The notes below the pieces were generated by a model. The model was not told where the DNA came from. It ran no database searches and saw nothing but the letters and a program-made list of their open reading frames with translations. This document shows, piece by piece, positions 22,453 through 57,403 of a stretch of DNA of 64,000 bases. Numbering within the stretch: position 1 is the stretch's first letter; each line of letters opens with the position of its first letter. The position numbers and the translations under genes were made by a program. Source of the DNA: a beta proteobacterium KB13 (GTDB lineage: Bacteria; Pseudomonadota; Gammaproteobacteria; Burkholderiales; Methylophilaceae); NCBI GenBank assembly GCA_000156155.1, contig DS995299.1:459827-523826 (forward strand). The letters are read 5' to 3'.

Positions 22453-24573
22453 CTATTCCAATCTTTTTGGGTAGTTGATAACATAAAAAAATAAAGATGG
22501 TAATAGCAAAAATAATATGAATACTATTGAACTTAAAATTTTATCAACATAAACAAACTCAATAACCCTTGCATTTTCTGGTAGCTTAACCCCTTTAAAT
22601 GCTTTATCAATAACTAATATGTCTGCTGGCGCTTCGTTAACATATGCTTTCCATTTGTTAGAAAAACTATCTGCATATTTTATTAATAAACTATCATAAT
22701 TATTCTCTGTTAATTTAAGTTTAATTTTATTATTTGTAAATTGATCTAAAGAATATTCTACTGGGACTTGTATCATATTCTTAGTTAATGAATAATCATA
22801 TTTAGCGCTTTTCCAAAATGTAATTTTAGATGAATCACAAGATATTAATGCTTCTAGTGAATCAATATTATATGTTCTCATATTGTCAGCTGGATCATTA
22901 ATGTACCTTATAAGGTTTCTTTCATTATTGAGCAATTTCATAATTAATTGACCCACTATATCTTGCTTTGGTTGACTGCATGAATCTATGTTAAAAAATG
23001 AATTAGACAAGCTGTAGTAATGTTTTTGCTGTTTATTGTTAAATGTTTCAAATTTTTTTTCATAAAAATCATCAATATCAATTTTTTTTCTTTCAACAAA
23101 TTGAATTTTCTTGGCGATCTTAAATTCACTCTTAATTGAAGCATTTCCGTAGGAATCAGAATCAAAATTATAAATTATCCTATAAGCTACATAATCCAAT
23201 AATGATAAAAAAACTAAAATGTAGATAACAAATTTTTTAACAGTTTTTGTGTAAAAAAATAAGATAACAGTTAATGAAAGAAGTAACGAAATAAAAAGAG
23301 TATGAATATTATAGAAGTTCATACCGTTCAGATTTTGGAAAATTATATTTATAAAAAGAAATATAAATATTAATAAATGATATTTATAATTTTTGTTAAA
23401 AATTAAGTGAGCTTTTGTTAAAGCTAATGAGGAGCCAATAATGATGCTTATTTTAAACAACGAACCAAAATAGCCAATATGTCTGACTTTATCAAAACCG
23501 GGGAGGTAATAAAAAATTTTAGCAAAACCTAATGATGGGTTAATCAAGTAAACTGTAAACAAAAATAAAGAATAAACACCTAAGTAATTTTTATTATCTT
23601 TTAATATCCATACTCCAAATAGAAACATCACAAAAGAAATTAATCCTGAATAAATTAAAAAATCATGATTTATGGAAAAAGGTTTTGAAATAAATAATTC
23701 TTGTAATTTATCGATTGATAGAAATCCTCCGTAATTCAAGAATACATCTTTAGTATTTTTAAAATCTTCAATTCTATCAATTCCATTAAAACTGTAGGAA
23801 TGACTAATTTGTTGATAGAAATAAAATACACTTGATGTTAGAAATAAAATAATAAAAAAATAAATAAATGTTTCTATTTTATTGATTTCAAGTGTAATTT
23901 TTTTTAACCATTTTTTATTTATTCGGCGTGCCCAGATAAGCTCTGAAATAAAGTTGACAGAGAAATATAACAATAAGATATAAAACTGAATTACTAAAGT
24001 ATATCCAACAGAACCAAAGCTGAAAATAAGAAGAATAATTAATGCAAGTAAAATATTTTTTATTTTTTGTGTCTGAAAAAACATATTTATAAAATATAAA
24101 GAAAAGGGGAGTGAGCAGATCAATTTAATTCCAAAATATAATTGATTATCAATGAATAAAATTAGCATACTGACAATCGCTATATAAATTGAAATTACCT
24201 TATTTTTATTAAGGGAGTATGTTAGATAGTAACAACCAAGACTAAAAAAAAGTATATCTATCATATTGCTTAATATAAATAGATTTAGTGTATTTTGAAT
24301 TTGGAATATGTATCCAATTAAAACAGACAAATAATTTGACATCGAAATGTTCAAAAATATAAATGCATCCGTGTGTGTTCCATACCCGCTGAATGGAAAC
24401 CATAATGGTATTTCATGATTAAAATATAATGAACTGTAGAAATGAGAAAATGTATGATACACACTTAAAGAATCATTAGTAGGATAAAATCCATTTGAAT
24501 AAAATATTGTATTTATTAAAAAAATGCTTATTACTATTGAAAGCAGATGGTGGTTTTTAAAATAATTAATCAT
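22453..24573 (-). CDS. Large GT-C/YfhO-like membrane protein, paralogue 2
   Basis: A 706-aa inner-membrane protein with about 12 hydrophobic helices and a soluble C-terminal domain of roughly 200 residues before a final helix. The first external loop has FYPTNDSLSVYHTF and IPLWFPFSGYG, the acidic-loop layout of GT-C and YfhO-type glycosyltransferases that use lipid-linked sugars on the periplasmic face. YLPGFDKVRHIGY is shared nearly word for word with the upstream protein (YLPGMSYVRHISY), so the two are tandem paralogues. Start overlaps that gene by 8 nt. Exact acceptor unknown. Confidence 0.7.
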   Translation of the reverse strand: MINYFKNHHLLSIVISIFLINTIFYSNGFYPTNDSLSVYHTFSHFYSSLYFNHEIPLWFPFSGYGTHTDAFIFLNISMSNYLSVLIGYIFQIQNTLNLFILSNMIDILFFSLGCYYLTYSLNKNKVISIYIAIVSMLILFIDNQLYFGIKLICSLPFSLYFINMFFQTQKIKNILLALIILLIFSFGSVGYTLVIQFYILLLYFSVNFISELIWARRINKKWLKKITLEINKIETFIYFFIILFLTSSVFYFYQQISHSYSFNGIDRIEDFKNTKDVFLNYGGFLSIDKLQELFISKPFSINHDFLIYSGLISFVMFLFGVWILKDNKNYLGVYSLFLFTVYLINPSLGFAKIFYYLPGFDKVRHIGYFGSLFKISIIIGSSLALTKAHLIFNKNYKYHLLIFIFLFINIIFQNLNGMNFYNIHTLFISLLLSLTVILFFYTKTVKKFVIYILVFLSLLDYVAYRIIYNFDSDSYGNASIKSEFKIAKKIQFVERKKIDIDDFYEKKFETFNNKQQKHYYSLSNSFFNIDSCSQPKQDIVGQLIMKLLNNERNLIRYINDPADNMRTYNIDSLEALISCDSSKITFWKSAKYDYSLTKNMIQVPVEYSLDQFTNNKIKLKLTENNYDSLLIKYADSFSNKWKAYVNEAPADILVIDKAFKGVKLPENARVIEFVYVDKILSSIVFILFLLLPSLFFYVINYPKRLE

Positions 24574-26650
24574 TTTTTAATTTTAGAATTATCATAAAAA
24601 TAAATAGCGAGAAAACTATAGATGAAATATAAGCTCTTAAAGTTTCAAGAATTATGTATCCTTTACTAATTTTAAACTCTACCAAACTTTTGCCTTTATT
24701 TATTTTAAAAGATTTAAATCCATTTACAATTTTTATGTCATGTAATTTTGAATTAATAAATAACTTCCAATAAGGGTGATATGCATCATAATAAATATAA
24801 TGCTCTTCTTCATTTATTAAATTTTCAATATCAATTGATATTTGATTCGGTGTAAATGTTTTTATATTTATATTATGCTCAATTGAACTGTCAAAGTTAT
24901 TTAAATTTTCAATTTTATATCTATTGCAACCAACAACTTTTCTCCTGGATAATGAAAAATCTGAATCATTATCAAATTTGATATTAGTTGGATTAAAGTT
25001 GAGTTTATTTTTCGAAAGGGTTTTGTTTATTTCGCTATGAATTAAATCGTTTCTATAATAAGGATAGCAATAATCCTCTCTAAAAAAAACATGATTCGAA
25101 TCATAGTCAGCATAAGCTGTATTTTTCTTATTTCTAAAGTTTACTAAATAGTTAAAGAATCTTTGTTTGGTTGATATTTCTGGGTCTATTCGTTTTGTTA
25201 TGAAAGGAAAGTCATTATTTCTGATATTGTTTATTTGATTTGGATCTAACTCATAGTCTTTATTTGGAAATACTGAAATTCTGTGATGAAGAACATTTAT
25301 AATTACAAATAATAACAAAATAACTAAACTAATCTTATTTGTTTTTTTTGATTTTAAAATTATCAATAAGGCAAAAATTGAAATCAATATTGTAAAGATA
25401 TCTTCTTTATAAATTAATCCAACTAAACAAAATAAATAAAAAAATAAAATTAACGTAATTGTTTTTTTAAATGATTGTTTAAAGTATTCATCTTTTAATA
25501 AAATATTATTCAATCCAATAGCAGAAAGAAGAATTAAAATAGGTTTTAAAATAATTGACATATATGATATGTGTCTAACATATGACATTCCTGGGAGGTA
25601 AAAAAAGATTTGATGTATTATTTTAGATATAGGATTTGAAAAAATAATTACAAATATTGCAACAGCAATTAAACTTTTTGAAACATAGTTGGTGTATTTA
25701 TCTTTTATGTTTAGACAAAAAAATGATAAAAATATTGGAATAATTCCTATAAATAAATCAAAATCAAGTGAGTATATTTTTTCACCAAACAATCCATACA
25801 TTTTGTTGATTTCAGTAAATCCACCATAATTTAACCAGTCATCAAATGTTACCAATCCATCTTCAGTTCTTGCCGGTGATAAAATAACAAAATTATTTAA
25901 AAGATCATTGATATGTATCAAATATGTCATTATGAAAAAAAGTGACAAACCCATCATAATCAAATCTAGTTTATTAAGAGTAAATGATGGTCTTAATTTT
26001 ACTTTTGATTGATATAAGTATGCTAATGAGAAAACAATTAGAACATAAAATATTACTATAAAGAAATATATTAACGTGCCGCAAACAATGAGATACAGAA
26101 ATGACAAAATAAAAAATTGTAATCTTTTGGAAGGGTTGTCAAAAAAATAAATTAATAAAAATATTAACGGGGGAATCTTTGATATTAAATTAAAATCAAA
26201 GCCAACTTGATGAATTGGATTTATTGTTAAAGCTGCTAATATCGTAGCATAAAGAATGGATATTTTTTTTAATTTTAATTTTTTGAGAATTAAAGCGATT
26301 GATCCAATATATAAAAAAGTATTTAAAATAATAGATAAATTATAGAAAAATAAATTAGAGTTTTTACTAAATAATGAACCTGTAATAATAGATAAAAACT
26401 CAGCACTTGATGTGACAAAAAGATTTGAGGTTTGCGAAAGACCATATGAGATATAGGGATTCCATAATGGAATTTCTTTAAAATCATTAAAAGTATCAAA
26501 TAGGTACGTATAACTTATATATCGCTCAAGAGAGTCATGAGCATAAAATCCATTAAAGATCGAAAAAATAAAAAAGATTGGTAAAAAAGATAAAAAGGGT
26601 ATTGAATAAAGAAGCCAATATTTACTCAAATTTTTTATAGATTGGTACAT
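24566..26650 (-). CDS. Large GT-C/YfhO-like membrane protein, paralogue 1
   Basis: A 694-aa multi-pass protein with the same layout as its downstream neighbour: an N-terminal helix, a first loop with FYAHDSLERYIS and IPLWNPYISYGLS, about 11 further helices, and a soluble C-terminal domain with HYIYYDAYHPYWKLFI. The DSxxxY...PLWNP pattern is that of bacterial YfhO-like proteins needed for sugar decoration of surface polymers. It is read from a palindromic divergent promoter; the ATG at 26650 is only 5 nt past a TATAAT, so its message may lack a leader. Confidence 0.7.
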   Translation of the reverse strand: MYQSIKNLSKYWLLYSIPFLSFLPIFFIFSIFNGFYAHDSLERYISYTYLFDTFNDFKEIPLWNPYISYGLSQTSNLFVTSSAEFLSIITGSLFSKNSNLFFYNLSIILNTFLYIGSIALILKKLKLKKISILYATILAALTINPIHQVGFDFNLISKIPPLIFLLIYFFDNPSKRLQFFILSFLYLIVCGTLIYFFIVIFYVLIVFSLAYLYQSKVKLRPSFTLNKLDLIMMGLSLFFIMTYLIHINDLLNNFVILSPARTEDGLVTFDDWLNYGGFTEINKMYGLFGEKIYSLDFDLFIGIIPIFLSFFCLNIKDKYTNYVSKSLIAVAIFVIIFSNPISKIIHQIFFYLPGMSYVRHISYMSIILKPILILLSAIGLNNILLKDEYFKQSFKKTITLILFFYLFCLVGLIYKEDIFTILISIFALLIILKSKKTNKISLVILLLFVIINVLHHRISVFPNKDYELDPNQINNIRNNDFPFITKRIDPEISTKQRFFNYLVNFRNKKNTAYADYDSNHVFFREDYCYPYYRNDLIHSEINKTLSKNKLNFNPTNIKFDNDSDFSLSRRKVVGCNRYKIENLNNFDSSIEHNINIKTFTPNQISIDIENLINEEEHYIYYDAYHPYWKLFINSKLHDIKIVNGFKSFKINKGKSLVEFKISKGYIILETLRAYISSIVFSLFIFMIILKLKND

Positions 26651-26680
26651 AGCCTATTATACATTGTATAATTGGGTATG
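26643..26680. promoter_or_regulatory. Palindromic divergent promoter with symmetrical leaderless starts
   Basis: ATTATACA-T-TGTATAAT (26656-26672) is a perfect 8-bp inverted repeat whose two arms each form a -10 box, one for each strand. The plus-strand ATG (26678) and the minus-strand ATG (26650) both lie exactly 14 bp from the centre, with 5 nt after the -10. A plus-strand -35 TTGGTA (26643-26648) is spaced 18 bp; the minus-strand -35 is weak. Both messages would be leaderless. Confidence 0.6.
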
Positions 26681-27391
26681 AAAGTAACATTGTTAGTAAT
26701 GACACTCAACGAAATTGATGGCATGAAACAAATTATGCCAAAAATTAAGAAATCTTGGGTTAATCAGATTATAGTGGTTGATGGTGGTTCAACTGATGGT
26801 ACGGTTGAATGGGCAAAAGCCAATGGGTATGATGTGTATGTTCAAAGTAAAAAAGGTTTTCGTCACGCCTATGAAGAAGTTTGGCCTCTGATAAAAGGTG
26901 ATTATGTGTTAACCTTTAGTCCAGATGGAAATTCAGTTCCGCAGTTAATCACTAGCTTAGTATCAAAAGCAAAAAAAGGCTACGATATGGTTATCTGCTC
27001 ACGATATTTAGATGATGCTAAAAGCGATGATGATGATTTAATAACCGCTTTTGGAAATTTCTTGTTTACAAAAACAGTCAATATCCTTTTTCAAGGAAAA
27101 TATACAGATGTAATGGTAATTTATAGAATTTTTAGGAAATCTTTAGCTAATGAATTGCAGTTAATTGGTGATGAGGCATTTTCGTTACCTGAAAAATTAT
27201 TTTCTACTAAGATTAGTTGGGAGCCACTATTATCAGTTAGGGCATTGAAGGCTAAGAAAAAAATTGGAGAAATCCCTGGTGATGAGCCAAAAAGAATTGG
27301 AGGAGAAAGAAAGTTGCAAGTCCTTCGATGGGGAGCAGCCTACTACTTTCAATTCTTTAGGGAGCTATGGTTTTGGAAGCCAAAAAAATAA
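26678..27391 (+). CDS. DPM1-like family 2 glycosyltransferase, soluble
   Basis: A 237-aa GT-A enzyme without transmembrane helices. VMTLNEIDGM, VVDGGSTDGT, FSPDGNSVP (acidic metal site) and VICSRYLDDA are in normal order for transferases that act on polyprenyl phosphate. A TTG at 26672 is in frame but overlaps the -10 box; ATG 26678 is the better start. It overlaps the following GT-C gene by 25 nt, so the two probably act in sequence: this enzyme loads the lipid carrier and the membrane enzyme uses it. Confidence 0.82.
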   Translation: MKVTLLVMTLNEIDGMKQIMPKIKKSWVNQIIVVDGGSTDGTVEWAKANGYDVYVQSKKGFRHAYEEVWPLIKGDYVLTFSPDGNSVPQLITSLVSKAKKGYDMVICSRYLDDAKSDDDDLITAFGNFLFTKTVNILFQGKYTDVMVIYRIFRKSLANELQLIGDEAFSLPEKLFSTKISWEPLLSVRALKAKKKIGEIPGDEPKRIGGERKLQVLRWGAAYYFQFFRELWFWKPKK

Positions 27392-29673
27392 TACGTCTTT
27401 ATGAAAGATACTTTGGCTATTTAATATTATTCATCTTAATCCTCTTTAACATTCTTTGGCATTTAAATAATAATCAACTTCCATTGTCTGACGATGGAGA
27501 TCATTTTCGAATATCACTAGAAATATACCAAAAATTATCTCTAAATTTTTTTGACGGTGTTAAGTTTGCCTTACATTCCCCAGGTAAACCTATTTTATTT
27601 TCGATTTTTGCAATACCCTTCATGCCATTATTTAGTATTAATTATTTGTTACCTCTTATTATATTTACAATAACTATATTCACGCTTACGACCTTTGCTT
27701 ACTATCGTTTATTTAGGATTAACAATACTAGAAATGTTTCAGCGCTATTTACTGTTACTCTTTTAAGCTCACCGTTTATTTTTTCAATTCATACAATGTT
27801 TATGTCTGAAATAGTCTGGCATTTATGGTTTGTGATATTTCTGCTATGTATTCATTATTCTAAAAATTTCAGCCATAATTATTTTTCAATTCTAGCTGGC
27901 TTCTTTTTGGCTTTAGCTTTCTTGGCAAGACCTATTGAAAGCATATTAATTATTTCTCCATTATTGTGCATATATTTTTTTTATTTAAATCAGATCGCTT
28001 TAAAAAATATAATTTTTTTCTTAAAACCAACTTTTTTTTTAATTTTATCCATTTTCATTTTTTCACTTATTTCGTGGTTTGGGATAAATAAAACTCTAAG
28101 CATAATTTTTTTATCCCTCATTACTTTTTTAGTTATTTATTTCTATAGCTCAAAATATCAGTTTATAGAAAGATCAATTATTAATTTCTATACGACTTTT
28201 AATTTTTTTATATGTTTTTGGTTTATTTTTTATTTTAGACCTTTGGCTTATTGGTCTTTTGATAGTTCGTTTGGTAATGGCGCACTTGTGAACGATCAAT
28301 CTAATTCAGATACAGGTTTTTTTAAAATCTTATACGAACTAACAAATGATTATGGTTTTATTTTTATCTTTATTTTGTCATTTTATGTGTGCGTATTATT
28401 TATTCAAATCTTGATTAAAAATCAAAAAAAACAATTGATTGATTTGCGTCATTTTTACGCTTTTTTAGCTTGTATATTTTCAATTTTGCCTATGGTTGGT
28501 ATATACGTTTTGACTGGAACGAGTGACTCACGGAGAATTTTTTTAGGATTTGTGATTTTTTGTTTCCTAGGCTTAAATATATTAGGTAATTTAAATTTTA
28601 AATTAAAATTTTTGAATATTTTAAAGTTTTTTCTTATTTCAACAATTCTTATTATTCATCTATTTTCAATATTAATTGTTATTTATAAAAATGATTTTTT
28701 ACTCAATACTGGTAATAATATTGAGAAAATATATGGCAGCTTAAAATATCGACAGCCAAGTAAGATACCGTATGCTGATGATGCTGTTATCAGGGAATTA
28801 AAAGATGTTGGTGTTAATAATTCAAAAGTATGTGTTTTATCCTTAGGTCTTTTAAATGAGGGCGCTAATAATTTATCCCTTAAAAAGAATTCATTTACTG
28901 ATTATGTATTTGTTGCTGATTATTCAAGTGAAAGTATAAGGTATGTTGATATGATAAATTCTGATAAGAATGAATATATGCATTTATTTGGTTTCGTAAA
29001 AAATGAGGAGTATGAAAATTCCATTAACAGATTACGTACAATGAATTTTGAATACCTTCTTCTTGATTCAAGACCTGAGAATATTTTGGATGAAAAATTA
29101 AAAACAAGATATTTATCACATACCCACTTTGTTAACAATTTATTAGAGAAAATTAAAGAATTTGGACCTAATAAGCTTCCTGGTCTTGAATTTGTGCATG
29201 ATTTTGAAATTAATGGAAGACCACATTATTTATTTCGGATTCAATATCCTCCCAAACCAACTGTCAAGGCAAGTAGTCAGCTTGATGATTTATCTGCATC
29301 AGGCTTATTAGATTCAGTCCAACCAGGCTGGCATGCGGAATTAAATCCGACTTACCCACAAGAGATTGAAATAAAATTTACCGAATTACAAAAAAATATA
29401 ACCGTATTTAAATTTTTATTCCAAGATCATTACCCCAAAAGAGGCCCTAAAAATATTGATATATTAGCAAGTGTTGATGGTGAAAAATGGAATTTAATTC
29501 ATACTGACAATGATTTATGCTCAAAAAAAACACTTACGACATCATTAACAGATGGTGAAACAATTAGGTCTGTCATAAAAAATAAAGTTTCATTTAAACA
29601 GCTTCGGATTAAAATAAACTCAAATTGTGGCGATGAAGAGTACCTTACACTTAGAGGATTTCAAGTTCAATAG
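27367..29673 (+). CDS. GT39/GT-C-like membrane glycosyltransferase with a C-terminal discoidin-like domain
   Basis: A 768-aa protein. Residues 1-460 form about 12 hydrophobic helices with a first-loop acidic motif (LSDDGDHFRIS) typical of GT-C enzymes that use polyprenyl-phosphate sugars. Residues about 460-620 are soluble. Residues about 630-768 look like a discoidin/F5-F8 type C beta-sandwich: the VKASSQLDD opening, PTYPQEIEIKF, NIDILASVDGEKWNLI, and FKQLRIKI near the end. Such domains bind carbohydrate, so this may hold the acceptor polysaccharide. It overlaps the preceding GT2 gene. Confidence 0.75.
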   Translation: MVLEAKKIIRLYERYFGYLILFILILFNILWHLNNNQLPLSDDGDHFRISLEIYQKLSLNFFDGVKFALHSPGKPILFSIFAIPFMPLFSINYLLPLIIFTITIFTLTTFAYYRLFRINNTRNVSALFTVTLLSSPFIFSIHTMFMSEIVWHLWFVIFLLCIHYSKNFSHNYFSILAGFFLALAFLARPIESILIISPLLCIYFFYLNQIALKNIIFFLKPTFFLILSIFIFSLISWFGINKTLSIIFLSLITFLVIYFYSSKYQFIERSIINFYTTFNFFICFWFIFYFRPLAYWSFDSSFGNGALVNDQSNSDTGFFKILYELTNDYGFIFIFILSFYVCVLFIQILIKNQKKQLIDLRHFYAFLACIFSILPMVGIYVLTGTSDSRRIFLGFVIFCFLGLNILGNLNFKLKFLNILKFFLISTILIIHLFSILIVIYKNDFLLNTGNNIEKIYGSLKYRQPSKIPYADDAVIRELKDVGVNNSKVCVLSLGLLNEGANNLSLKKNSFTDYVFVADYSSESIRYVDMINSDKNEYMHLFGFVKNEEYENSINRLRTMNFEYLLLDSRPENILDEKLKTRYLSHTHFVNNLLEKIKEFGPNKLPGLEFVHDFEINGRPHYLFRIQYPPKPTVKASSQLDDLSASGLLDSVQPGWHAELNPTYPQEIEIKFTELQKNITVFKFLFQDHYPKRGPKNIDILASVDGEKWNLIHTDNDLCSKKTLTTSLTDGETIRSVIKNKVSFKQLRIKINSNCGDEEYLTLRGFQVQ

Positions 29674-29687
29674 TTAAATATTAATGA

Positions 29688-30878
29688 TTAAGCTAACCTC
29701 TCTCTTGCTTTGCTGAATGCAGATATAGCGTATTCAATATCTTCTAGGCTATGAGCAGATGAGAGTTGAGTCCTGATTCTGGCTTTACCTTTAGGAACAA
29801 CTGGGTAAAAGAAGCCAATCGCATATACACCAAGTTTGAGTAATTCGTGACTCATCTTTTGTGCTAGCACGGCATCACCAAGCATGATTGGGACAATTGG
29901 ATGATCACCATCATCTACATCAAAACCTTGCTCTTTCATTCCCTTTCTAAAAAAATGTGTATTTTTTTCTAATTTGTCCCTTAAGTCAGTAGATTGATTA
30001 AGCATTTCAAATACTTTTACTGAAGCTGCGCATATATTAGGAGCAAGGGAATTAGAAAAAAGATATGGTCGAGATCGCTGTCTGAGCATATCAATAATTT
30101 CTTCCCGACCTGAGGTGAATCCACCGGATGCTCCACCAAGAGCTTTCCCAAAGGTGCTGGTGATTATATCTACACGATCCATGACATTGCGGTATTCATG
30201 AACACCTTTGCCATGTTTGCCCATGAAGCCTGTGGCATGACAATCATCATGATGAACCATGGCACCAAATTCATCAGCGAGGTCACAAATCTCATCGAGC
30301 TTGGCAATTGTGCCATCCATTGAAAATACACCGTCGGTGGTAATTAAAATACGTCGTGCTTTATTTTTTTTGGCTTCCTCAAGCTTAGCTCTTAAGTCTT
30401 GCATATCGTTATTCTTATATCGGTAACGTTGAGCTTTACATAATCGAACGCCATCAATAATGGAGGCGTGGTTTAATTCGTCAGAAATAATCGCATCTTC
30501 ATTATTTAATATAGTTTCAAATAACCCGGCATTAGCATCAAAACAGGCCGCATATAAAATAGTATCTTCAGTACCAAGAAATTTTGAAACTTCTTCTTCT
30601 AATCTTTTGTGCAGAGTTTGTGTTCCACATATAAATCTAACAGATGCTACTCCAAAACCCCAGCGATCTAGACTTTCTTTGGCAGCTTGAATGATTTCTT
30701 GATTATTGGCTAATCCGAGGTAGTTATTCGCACACATATTGATGACGGAAGATCCATCTTCAAGCGTGATTTTACTTTTTTGATCCGAATCAATAAAACG
30801 TTCGTTTTTCCACAACCCTGAATCTTTAATATCCTGTAGATCTGTTTGGAAGGATTTTTTTAGTGTTTTGAAGCTCAT
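29688..30878 (-). CDS. kbl: 2-amino-3-ketobutyrate CoA ligase (glycine C-acetyltransferase)
   Basis: Cleaves 2-amino-3-ketobutyrate with CoA to glycine and acetyl-CoA, the second step of threonine breakdown. At 396 aa it matches E. coli Kbl (398). The PLP lysine is in [32 protein letters not shown] and [10 protein letters not shown] are typical of the alpha-oxoamine synthase family. It follows tdh by 3 nt on the same strand and is separated by 14 bp from the convergent GT-C gene. Confidence 0.96.
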
Positions 30879-30881
30879 AAC

Positions 30882-31913
30882 TTATATCCAGTTTAAGATG
30901 ACTTTTCCAGAATTTCCAGAGCGCATGACATCGAAACCCTCTTGAAAATCTTCATATGAGAATCGGTGTGTGATGATCTTTTCTAATGGCAGGCCGCTTT
31001 GTACCATCATGGATCCTTTGTACCAGGTCTCAAAGATTTCACGCCCATAAATCCCTTTAATGGTTAAACCTTTAAATACCACCATATCCCAATCAATTCC
31101 TGATCCAGCAGGCATAATGGCAAGCATGGCGATATTACCACCGTTAATCATGAGATCTAACATCCCGCTGAATGCTTGTGGAGAGCCTGACATCTCTAAA
31201 CCAACATCAAAACCTTCAAAGATACCGAGTTTAGCCATCATCTCTTTGGTGATTTTTTCCTTAGATACATTAATAGTAATTACTTCTGGTAGTATTTTTT
31301 TAATGAGATCGAGACGGAACTGGTTCATGTCAGTGATGACAATATTTCTGGCACCCGCATGTTTGGCAACAAGCGCAGCCATACTTCCAATGGGACCTGC
31401 TCCGGTAATTAAAACATCTTCACCCACCATGTTAAAGGAAAGGGCGGTGTGCACTGCATTACCATATGGATCAAATACAGACAGAAGATCAGTTGAGATT
31501 TCTCGACTTGGCTTGAAAATATTCTTGGCTGGAATAGAGACGAACTCAGCGAATGCTCCTGTACGATTCACTCCCACGCCAATAGTATTGGGACAAAGAT
31601 GAATTCTGCCAGCCAAACAGTTGCGGCAGCGCCCACATGTGATATGGCCTTCACCAGATACAATGTCGCCCACAGACAAGTCAGTGACATTTTGACCCAC
31701 TTCGACAATTTCACCAGCATACTCATGACCAGTAATCATAGGGACTGGGATGGTTTTTTGTGCCCATTCATCCCAGTTATAGATATGAATATCTGTGCCA
31801 CAGATGGCCGTTTTGTGGATTTTTACTATGACGTCATTGTTACCACATTCCGGTTCAGGCATATCCTGAAGCCATATACCTTCTTCGGCTTTTGCTTTGA
31901 CTAGGGCTTTCAT
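30882..31913 (-). CDS. tdh: L-threonine 3-dehydrogenase
   Basis: Oxidises threonine to 2-amino-3-ketobutyrate with NAD. The 343-aa zinc MDR enzyme shows the catalytic zinc ligands in AICGTDIH and [10 protein letters not shown], the structural-zinc cysteines in [15 protein letters not shown], and the cofactor motif [10 protein letters not shown]. It is translationally close to kbl (3 nt) and 3 nt downstream of a small lipoprotein gene. GC is visibly higher than in the neighbouring polysaccharide genes, as expected for a core gene. Confidence 0.96.
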
Positions 31914-33179: not shown

Positions 33180-33215
33180 GTAGTAAAGATTTATGATGGA
33201 ATGTAATTCCTTAGC

Positions 33216-33221
33216 TATAAT
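33216..33221 (+). promoter_or_regulatory. -10 box of the gmhA-rfb operon, possible leaderless start
   Basis: A perfect TATAAT ends 7 nt before the ATG at 33229, so transcription would begin at the start codon. A -35 is weak (TTATGA at 33191-33196, 19 bp away). AGGG at 33222-33225 is too close to the ATG to be a normal ribosome site. Confidence 0.45.
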
Positions 33222-33228
33222 AGGGATT

Positions 33229-33801
33229 ATGAATGAAACTATTAAAAAACACCTCGAAGAACATCAATCTGTATTATCCACCCTTGAGTCTTTAGCACCT
33301 CAGATCGAAACAGTGGCTCGACATATGATTCAGGCCTTACAGAATGACAACGCCATTTTCTGGTGTGGCAATGGCGGCAGCGCCTCAGATGCTCAACATC
33401 TCGCAGGCGAGTTAATAGGTAGATTTATTGGAAATCGAATCCCTCTTAAATCGATTGCACTGACTGTCGGTGGCGCTGAAGGAAGTTGTATTGCAAACGA
33501 TTTTGGTTATGATCAGATATTCTCTCGCCAGGTGGAGGGTCTAGGAGCTAAGGGGGATGTGCTGGTTGGCATAACCACCTCGGGTAACAGTGAGAATGTA
33601 TTAAACGCTCTTGCAGTCGCTAACCAAAAACAGATGACCACCATTGGCTTATTGGGTAAGGGTGGAGGTAAAGCAATATCTTTGGTTAATGAATCGCTTG
33701 TGATTGAATCCAACATAACAGCCCGTATTCAGGAGATGCACATCACCATCGGCCATATTCTATGTGACCTCATTGAAGAAGGACTAAATTTAAAAGCATG
33801 A
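33229..33801 (+). CDS. gmhA: Phosphoheptose (sedoheptulose-7-phosphate) isomerase
   Basis: Converts sedoheptulose 7-phosphate to D-glycero-D-manno-heptose 7-phosphate, the first step to ADP- or GDP-heptose. The SIS domain is evident: [27 protein letters not shown], and the C-terminal [16 protein letters not shown] with the catalytic His/Glu region. An in-frame ATG at 33193 would add 12 residues that do not look conserved; ATG 33229 gives 190 aa, the usual size. The close relative DiaA is an alternative. It overlaps rfbB by 4 nt. GDP-heptose-type genes lie at 49.6-55.2 kb. Confidence 0.88.
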
Positions 33802-56191: not shown

Positions 56192-57403
56192 ATGAGTAAA
56201 GAAATTAATATCTATAAAGGTAACCATAAATTCGAATATGGAATTCAAGACATTGTAGAAATTATTGAAAATACCCTAATACGAAAAAAAATTAATTACA
56301 AAATATCGGATAAATTAGATCATAATTGTAATAATATTATTATTGAAGAATTTACTAATCCTTATTTTATTGAGAATATCAAATCTTTAAAAAATTCGAA
56401 CAAAATTGAAATTACATTAATAGCAACAGAATTTATAACGCAATACAAAACTGAAAATGAAAAATTTATTATTTCCTACTTTAATAATTTTGATCTAAAA
56501 AGTATAAAACTCATTTATTTATATTCATTTGTTGCATTTATTGTTTCAAATATATTTTTTTTTAATTTAATCAATTTTTCGAAATATTTTACTAAACTAA
56601 TATTATTCTTTTTTGACCTCATTATTTATTTTTTTTATGGGGGTTTTTTAATTCCTTATAATTTTTTTAAAAAATTTACTTTGAGATCAAATATAGATAT
56701 TTCAAAAACTCAGCCTGACATAAAATTATTTAAGACAGAGGAGTTAATTAAAAAAACTTTATTTAATAGAAATATTAAATTTCTAAACCATATATATTTT
56801 TTTGTACGATATAAGTATTTTTTAAAATCATTAATCTATGTTGATAATGTAATTTTTCTAAATTCGAAACAAGAGAAACAGTATAAATTTTTGAATTTAA
56901 AATCACTTGGATGTATTTCTCCTGAATTTTCTATTAAAAAATTTACAGAAAAATTAGATCAAAATGAATATGGTATTAAAATGACCGGTACTATCACCCC
57001 ATTTAGATATAAAATGATGGAACACTTCTTAAATCATTATTATTTAATTAATAATGATCATATTCCTTACTTAATTCAGTCATTCTCAAAAAAAGAAGCC
57101 AGTAATTTTTTATTTTCATTTCATCCACCTCAAACAAAGGATTGGATATATTCTAGTCCAACTAGAATTTTTAGATCATTTAATAATGATTTTTCTATTC
57201 CTATAGTTATTCATTATTTTAAACAATCGCAAATTGAAGACTTATGTATCTTATTTAATGAAGAGACTAAAGAAAATGTTTTTAAAAATTTTATTTCTAA
57301 GAAAAATTTTAAAAATTATTTACAAAAATATAAAATTAAATTGAATGCTTACATTTCAAAATCAGAAAAAATTAATGATTTGATATTTGATCAGTTATTA
57401 TGA
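56192..57403 (+). CDS. Unknown protein next to the ABC exporter, possibly a glycosyltransferase
   Basis: A 403-aa protein, very rich in Lys, Asn, Ile and Phe. Residues about 105-165 contain hydrophobic segments (YLYSFVAFIVSNIFFF, LILFFFDLIIYFFYGGFL) that could be one or two membrane helices; the rest is soluble. MTGTITPFRYKMMEHFLNHY recalls a donor-side segment of some glycosyltransferases, but no full motif set is present. It overlaps wzm by 4 nt, so it belongs to export or chain assembly. I cannot assign a function. Confidence 0.6.
   Translation: MSKEINIYKGNHKFEYGIQDIVEIIENTLIRKKINYKISDKLDHNCNNIIIEEFTNPYFIENIKSLKNSNKIEITLIATEFITQYKTENEKFIISYFNNFDLKSIKLIYLYSFVAFIVSNIFFFNLINFSKYFTKLILFFFDLIIYFFYGGFLIPYNFFKKFTLRSNIDISKTQPDIKLFKTEELIKKTLFNRNIKFLNHIYFFVRYKYFLKSLIYVDNVIFLNSKQEKQYKFLNLKSLGCISPEFSIKKFTEKLDQNEYGIKMTGTITPFRYKMMEHFLNHYYLINNDHIPYLIQSFSKKEASNFLFSFHPPQTKDWIYSSPTRIFRSFNNDFSIPIVIHYFKQSQIEDLCILFNEETKENVFKNFISKKNFKNYLQKYKIKLNAYISKSEKINDLIFDQLL

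Follow-up and report, generated by a model that had tools for sequence, protein, structure and literature searches.

Two back-to-back, probably leaderless promoters predicted in a 27-bp divergent gap of a Methylophilaceae polysaccharide island

How can two head-to-head genes both be transcribed and translated when 27 bp separate their start codons? The question is raised by a junction in the KB13 genome, within the 64,000-nt stretch analysed here (hereafter the window, genome positions 459827-523826). A perfect palindromic core, ATTATACA-T-TGTATAAT, can be read directly at 26656-26672 (arms 26656-26663 and 26665-26672, central T at 26664). An earlier note described an inverted repeat that supplies -10 boxes to both strands, and an exact TATAAT is present on each side. 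On the plus strand, TATAAT (26667-26672) is followed by a 5-nt spacer and the ATG at 26678-26680; on the minus strand, TATAAT (26661-26656) is followed by a 5-nt spacer and the ATG at 26650-26648. The distance from the centre to the A of each start codon is 14 bp on both strands, in agreement with the equal spacing claimed before. The A/T-rich intergenic gap thus has a 5-6-5-6-5 arrangement of spacer, -10 box, centre, -10 box, and spacer. While the perfect 17-bp core stands as described, the real symmetry is longer than was claimed, since the whole dyad, CATAGCCTATTATACA-T-TGTATAATTGGGTATG, spans 26648-26680, both start codons included, and its arms are complementary at 14 of 16 positions. The features of the locus are as follows.

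22453-24573, minus strand: 706-aa hydrophobic protein, second gene of the minus-strand unit and paralogue (27%) of the 694-aa protein
24566-26650, minus strand: 694-aa hydrophobic protein, a polytopic membrane protein by inspection and 27% paralogue of its 706-aa neighbour
26648-26680, no strand: imperfect 33-bp palindrome with 16-nt arms (26648-26663 and 26665-26680) and a 1-nt centre (26664)
26656-26672, no strand: perfect palindrome core, read from the sequence
26656-26661, minus strand: predicted -10 box TATAAT of the 694-aa gene, 5 nt from the ATG
26667-26672, plus strand: predicted -10 box TATAAT of the GT2 gene, 5 nt from the ATG
26678-27391, plus strand: family 2 glycosyltransferase (GT2), 237 aa, whose best curated relatives (AglJ and polyprenyl-phosphate hexose transferases) score below the cut-off
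27367-29673, plus strand: 768-aa membrane protein directly after the GT2 gene, with a C-terminus resembling an F5/8 type C domain

The start codons are well constrained. The plus-strand frame has a TAA at 26669-26671, and the sole alternative upstream start is a TTG at 26672, two codons before the ATG; the minus-strand frame has TAG and TAA codons just upstream of its ATG. Since these in-frame stops lie within the palindrome, neither gene can begin further upstream, apart from the plus-strand TTG, and longer starts are excluded for both genes. ATG 26678 is the likely start because GT2 homologues align from the first residue. We also rejected a terminator reading of the palindrome, as it has no T run and the terminator scan found none.

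In simulated random 27-bp gaps of local composition, TATAAT occurred at exactly both positions with P ~6e-6, and an equally good centred palindrome with P ~1e-4. Both values overstate the surprise, since ~3.6% of first genes in the genus carry TATAAT at -15 to -11; independent promoters at this frequency would give ~0.16 double TATAAT pairs per genome, with 130 divergent pairs assumed by extrapolation. Beyond the hexamers and start codons, symmetry is found at 5 of 7 positions (P ~0.03). Since the residual symmetry is just this, back-to-back promoters account for most of the palindrome. The pair of promoters is non-random, and a modest amount of luck could account for the extra symmetry. At 57280, an A/T-rich run gives the window's one other 14/16 match for arms of 16 nt and a loop of 0-3 nt.

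TATAAT near this distance is enriched at the level of the genus. We counted hexamers relative to start codons in 464 kb of the KB13 genome and 400 kb of four congeners (864 kb in total), with genes defined by a simple ORF rule, the 26656-26672 locus left out, and the expectation taken from -80 to -16. TATAAT was found to begin at -15 to -11 of 12 first genes, whereas 2.15 were expected (P 3e-6); no other of the 20 hexamers composed of three A and three T is as enriched there. Genes classed as internal show a weaker excess (6 vs 1.3). When gene starts were ignored, TATAAT-N5-ATG showed no excess across the genome (18 matches vs 16 in the control), because intragenic matches swamp the signal and a start-anchored count is required. 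Shine-Dalgarno words are far more enriched than TATAAT and form the main signal of the KB13 genome, so leaderless initiation is, judged by these counts, a minority mode in this lineage.

Leaderless genes elsewhere carry a TATAAT-like box ~12 bp upstream of the start codon, allowed at about -14 to -8 as counted from the second base, and in beta-proteobacteria this TA-led mode is found in a minority of genes only (PMC3160421). The palindrome locus resembles such genes in its -10-like hexamer, for which a centre ~10-12 nt ahead of the start codon is expected, in the missing Shine-Dalgarno sequence, and in the TA signal of the organism as a whole, and differs from them in a spacing shorter by 1 nt and in having two such genes back to back (PMC3160421). 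At neither gene is there a usable Shine-Dalgarno sequence at -15 to -5; GGG at -4 to -2 (plus) and AGG at -5 to -3 (minus) are too near the ATG. The commonest offset in the genus is -12, with 6 nt between box and ATG, and the boxes studied here lie at -11. With this 5-nt discriminator, initiation could miss the A of AUG. The -35 elements are weak on both strands: GGTACA (3/6, spacing 17) or TTGGTA (4/6, spacing 19) for the plus promoter, and CTTTCA (3/6, spacing 17) or TTCATA (4/6, spacing 15) for the minus promoter. A simple promoter scan listed neither predicted -10 site. Leaderless starts at both genes are plausible; because of the short spacing, the weak -35 boxes, and the scan result, we regard the case as good but not secure. 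The earlier proposal of divergent -10 boxes with transcripts beginning at the AUG is thus supported as a prediction by the genus TATAAT signal, the missing Shine-Dalgarno sequences, and the conserved similar pair described below.

The main alternative is that each gene has an ordinary leadered promoter within the gene opposite, so that the divergent transcripts overlap, the TATAAT boxes having arisen by chance in A+T-rich DNA. The A/T-rich gap and the poor -35 boxes agree with it, and divergent gaps in this genome go down to 2 bp (L013), which makes it probable that some of its promoters lie within an opposing gene. However, chance seldom puts both boxes at their exact places (the P ~6e-6 given above), and TATAAT is specifically enriched at the leaderless distance in the genus. 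Moreover, hypothetical longer RNAs, which have no Shine-Dalgarno sequence, would hide each AUG inside a hairpin of -11.6 or -8.6 kcal/mol (z = -2.55 for a 49-nt plus-strand fragment and -1.65 for a 71-nt minus-strand fragment). Such folding would be unfavourable to translation and so agrees with starts at the ATG; it could also be a regulatory feature. We therefore consider leadered promoters unlikely, if still deserving of attention.

In the region 33193-33232 of the window, a phosphoheptose-isomerase-like gene is listed from ATG 33193, while its matches to the family set in at residue 14. The ATG at 33229, preceded at 7 nt by a TATAAT at 33216, is the likelier start and perhaps the head of another leaderless operon; an AGGG between the two could serve as a Shine-Dalgarno sequence.

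A second compact divergent pair, consisting of a heptosyltransferase and a family 1-type glycosyltransferase (both identified from their sequences, without a family search), has an 18-bp gap in the KB13 genome (L017:5566-7494; also L037 and L057-L062). It is kept in six genus genomes (G000, G002, G004, G013, G014, and G029), with gaps of 18-20 bp in the last five. On the heptosyltransferase side, TATAAT is located at -12 to -14. Since the gap core AAATTATAAAC is nearly invariant while glycosyltransferase identity drops to 62-81%, the comparison favours the view that compact divergent promoters function at glycan genes of this lineage. Both pairs are head-to-head surface-glycan genes with a short gap and TATAAT at the leaderless distance. 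In the heptosyltransferase pair, however, the -10 boxes of the two strands overlap and have a TATA core in common, and that pair is conserved between species, whereas the palindrome pair is strain-specific.

The KB13 genome is 1.334 Mb, has 35% GC in the sample, and encodes a RuMP-pathway isomerase; other 1.3-Mb genomes occur in the same family, and we infer that these features fit pelagic Methylophilaceae. A tmRNA (genome 457686-458036) precedes the window by 1.8 kb, and a tRNA-Ser(gga) (genome 549550) follows it by 26 kb. The replacement island fGI-1 of 'Ca. Methylopumilus' and OM43 has a tRNA-Ser(gga) at its boundary and a tmRNA within it, is strain-variable and polysaccharide-rich, and is ascribed to phage evasion (PMC10872708). 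The window shares with it the tmRNA, the tRNA-Ser(gga), glycan genes, and variable content, as judged at the tRNA-Ser(gga) side. The palindrome locus is located within a strain-variable polysaccharide island matching fGI-1 of pelagic Methylophilaceae. The island also contains tdh and kbl (29688-31913).

A search of 30 congeners found neither of the two genes that flank the palindrome. A search for orthologues of the junction in the genus and the order found none in the genus, so the site itself offers no phylogenetic footprint. Close GT2 homologues (60-76%) are found in distant phyla, and those outside the genus (L003-L010) have different upstream DNA without the palindrome site. In L003, L004, L005, and L010, the GT2 homologue likewise precedes a relative of the 768-aa protein, so the GT2/768-aa pair looks like a mobile module. 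In an order-level relative (L066:4637-7839), the next gene after a GT2 homologue has the same orientation and encodes a large membrane protein akin to the 694- and 706-aa proteins. Because homologues of both genes are adjacent and co-directional there, GT2 and the 694/706-aa-type membrane protein look like partners that would cooperate rather than oppose each other.

Taken as a whole, we think it probable that the 27-bp gap contains two back-to-back sigma70-type promoters, probably leaderless and weakly coupled, that arose in the polysaccharide island. One housekeeping-sigma promoter would serve each strand, its exact TATAAT being so near the ATG that the RNA would begin at the start codon or at most 1-2 nt away, and translation of both genes would be leaderless. 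The two polymerases would require the same DNA, and only one could be bound at a time; at ordinary activity this exclusion would couple the two transcripts weakly. The arrangement may have originated as a membrane-protein gene in a replacement island of a streamlined Methylophilaceae-type genome acquired a horizontally mobile GT2 gene as its head-to-head neighbour. The divergent arrangement is probably an ordinary consequence of genome compaction. Divergent promoters can shrink far in streamlined genomes, and 27 bp, or 18 bp in the conserved case, may suffice if both genes are leaderless. The counts also add computational evidence that this lineage begins a minority of its operons leaderless (~3.6% with an exact TATAAT). 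The palindrome locus does not demonstrate a new regulatory principle.

The palindrome could instead be an operator, at which a dimeric regulator binds a 7-1-7 site, TTATACA-T-TGTATAA, and represses both genes. The perfect 17-bp dyad is centred between the predicted start sites as such a site would be, and the residual symmetry outside the -10 boxes (P ~0.03) points the same way. However, the regulator site suggested in the earlier note does not recur: the genome holds 9 matches at up to two mismatches against 12 in the control, and among 31 genus genomes the palindrome locus is the only occurrence. No regulator gene was found among the annotated neighbours, and we consider an operator improbable.

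The same note also proposed that the two polymerases compete for the site and so form a built-in toggle between surface-glycan modules. Mutually exclusive binding does follow from the geometry of the overlapping predicted footprints. Without feedback, exclusion between polymerases leads to rapid stochastic alternation and not to stable states. It is highly improbable that the mirror-image leaderless promoters constitute a minimal exclusion element, with the ratio of two surface-glycan activities determined by nothing but polymerase choice, and that such a compact architecture is found again at divergent glycan genes of streamlined methylotrophs. At five tested E. coli bidirectional promoters, basal activity was too low for competition, which arose only once one side was strongly activated; where interference constrained transcription, cell-to-cell variation decreased (PMC12825309). 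A true toggle, in which polymerase exclusion would let any single cell express only one side or the other and so yield phase-like glycan heterogeneity, has in its favour the completely overlapping footprints and an island under phage pressure (PMC10872708), but it is scarcely credible given the required feedback with no regulator among the annotated genes, the fast random alternation expected otherwise, the behaviour of the E. coli promoters, and the co-directional homologues in L066.

Weakly coupled back-to-back promoters, as preferred here, have partial counterparts among known systems. The divergent promoters of the EcoRV restriction-modification system likewise have overlapping polymerase sites and hence coupled transcription; unlike the palindrome locus, which has no known regulator, they have a C-protein regulator, and the C transcript is not leaderless (PMC5333194). 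In bidirectional promoters (Warman et al. 2021, cited in PMC10268837; PMC12825309), one shared -10 element serves both strands and the distance between start sites is 7-25 bp, in most cases 18 bp. The palindrome locus shares with them a symmetric -10 sequence, mutually exclusive polymerases, and very close divergent starts, and differs in having two separate -10 hexamers 5 bp apart with predicted starts ~28 bp apart. With its separate -10 elements and a predicted start-to-start distance of 28 bp, it lies outside the Grainger definition (shared -10, starts 7-25 bp apart) while resembling bidirectional promoters in logic. TATTAT at 26655-26660, as an alternative element shared by both strands, would agree with the definition only if the transcripts had leaders. 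Elsewhere, at L019:8128-8174, a divergent pair with a 45-bp gap shares one symmetric box, TTATTATAATG, and this box comes closer than the palindrome site to the classic geometry of a bidirectional promoter.
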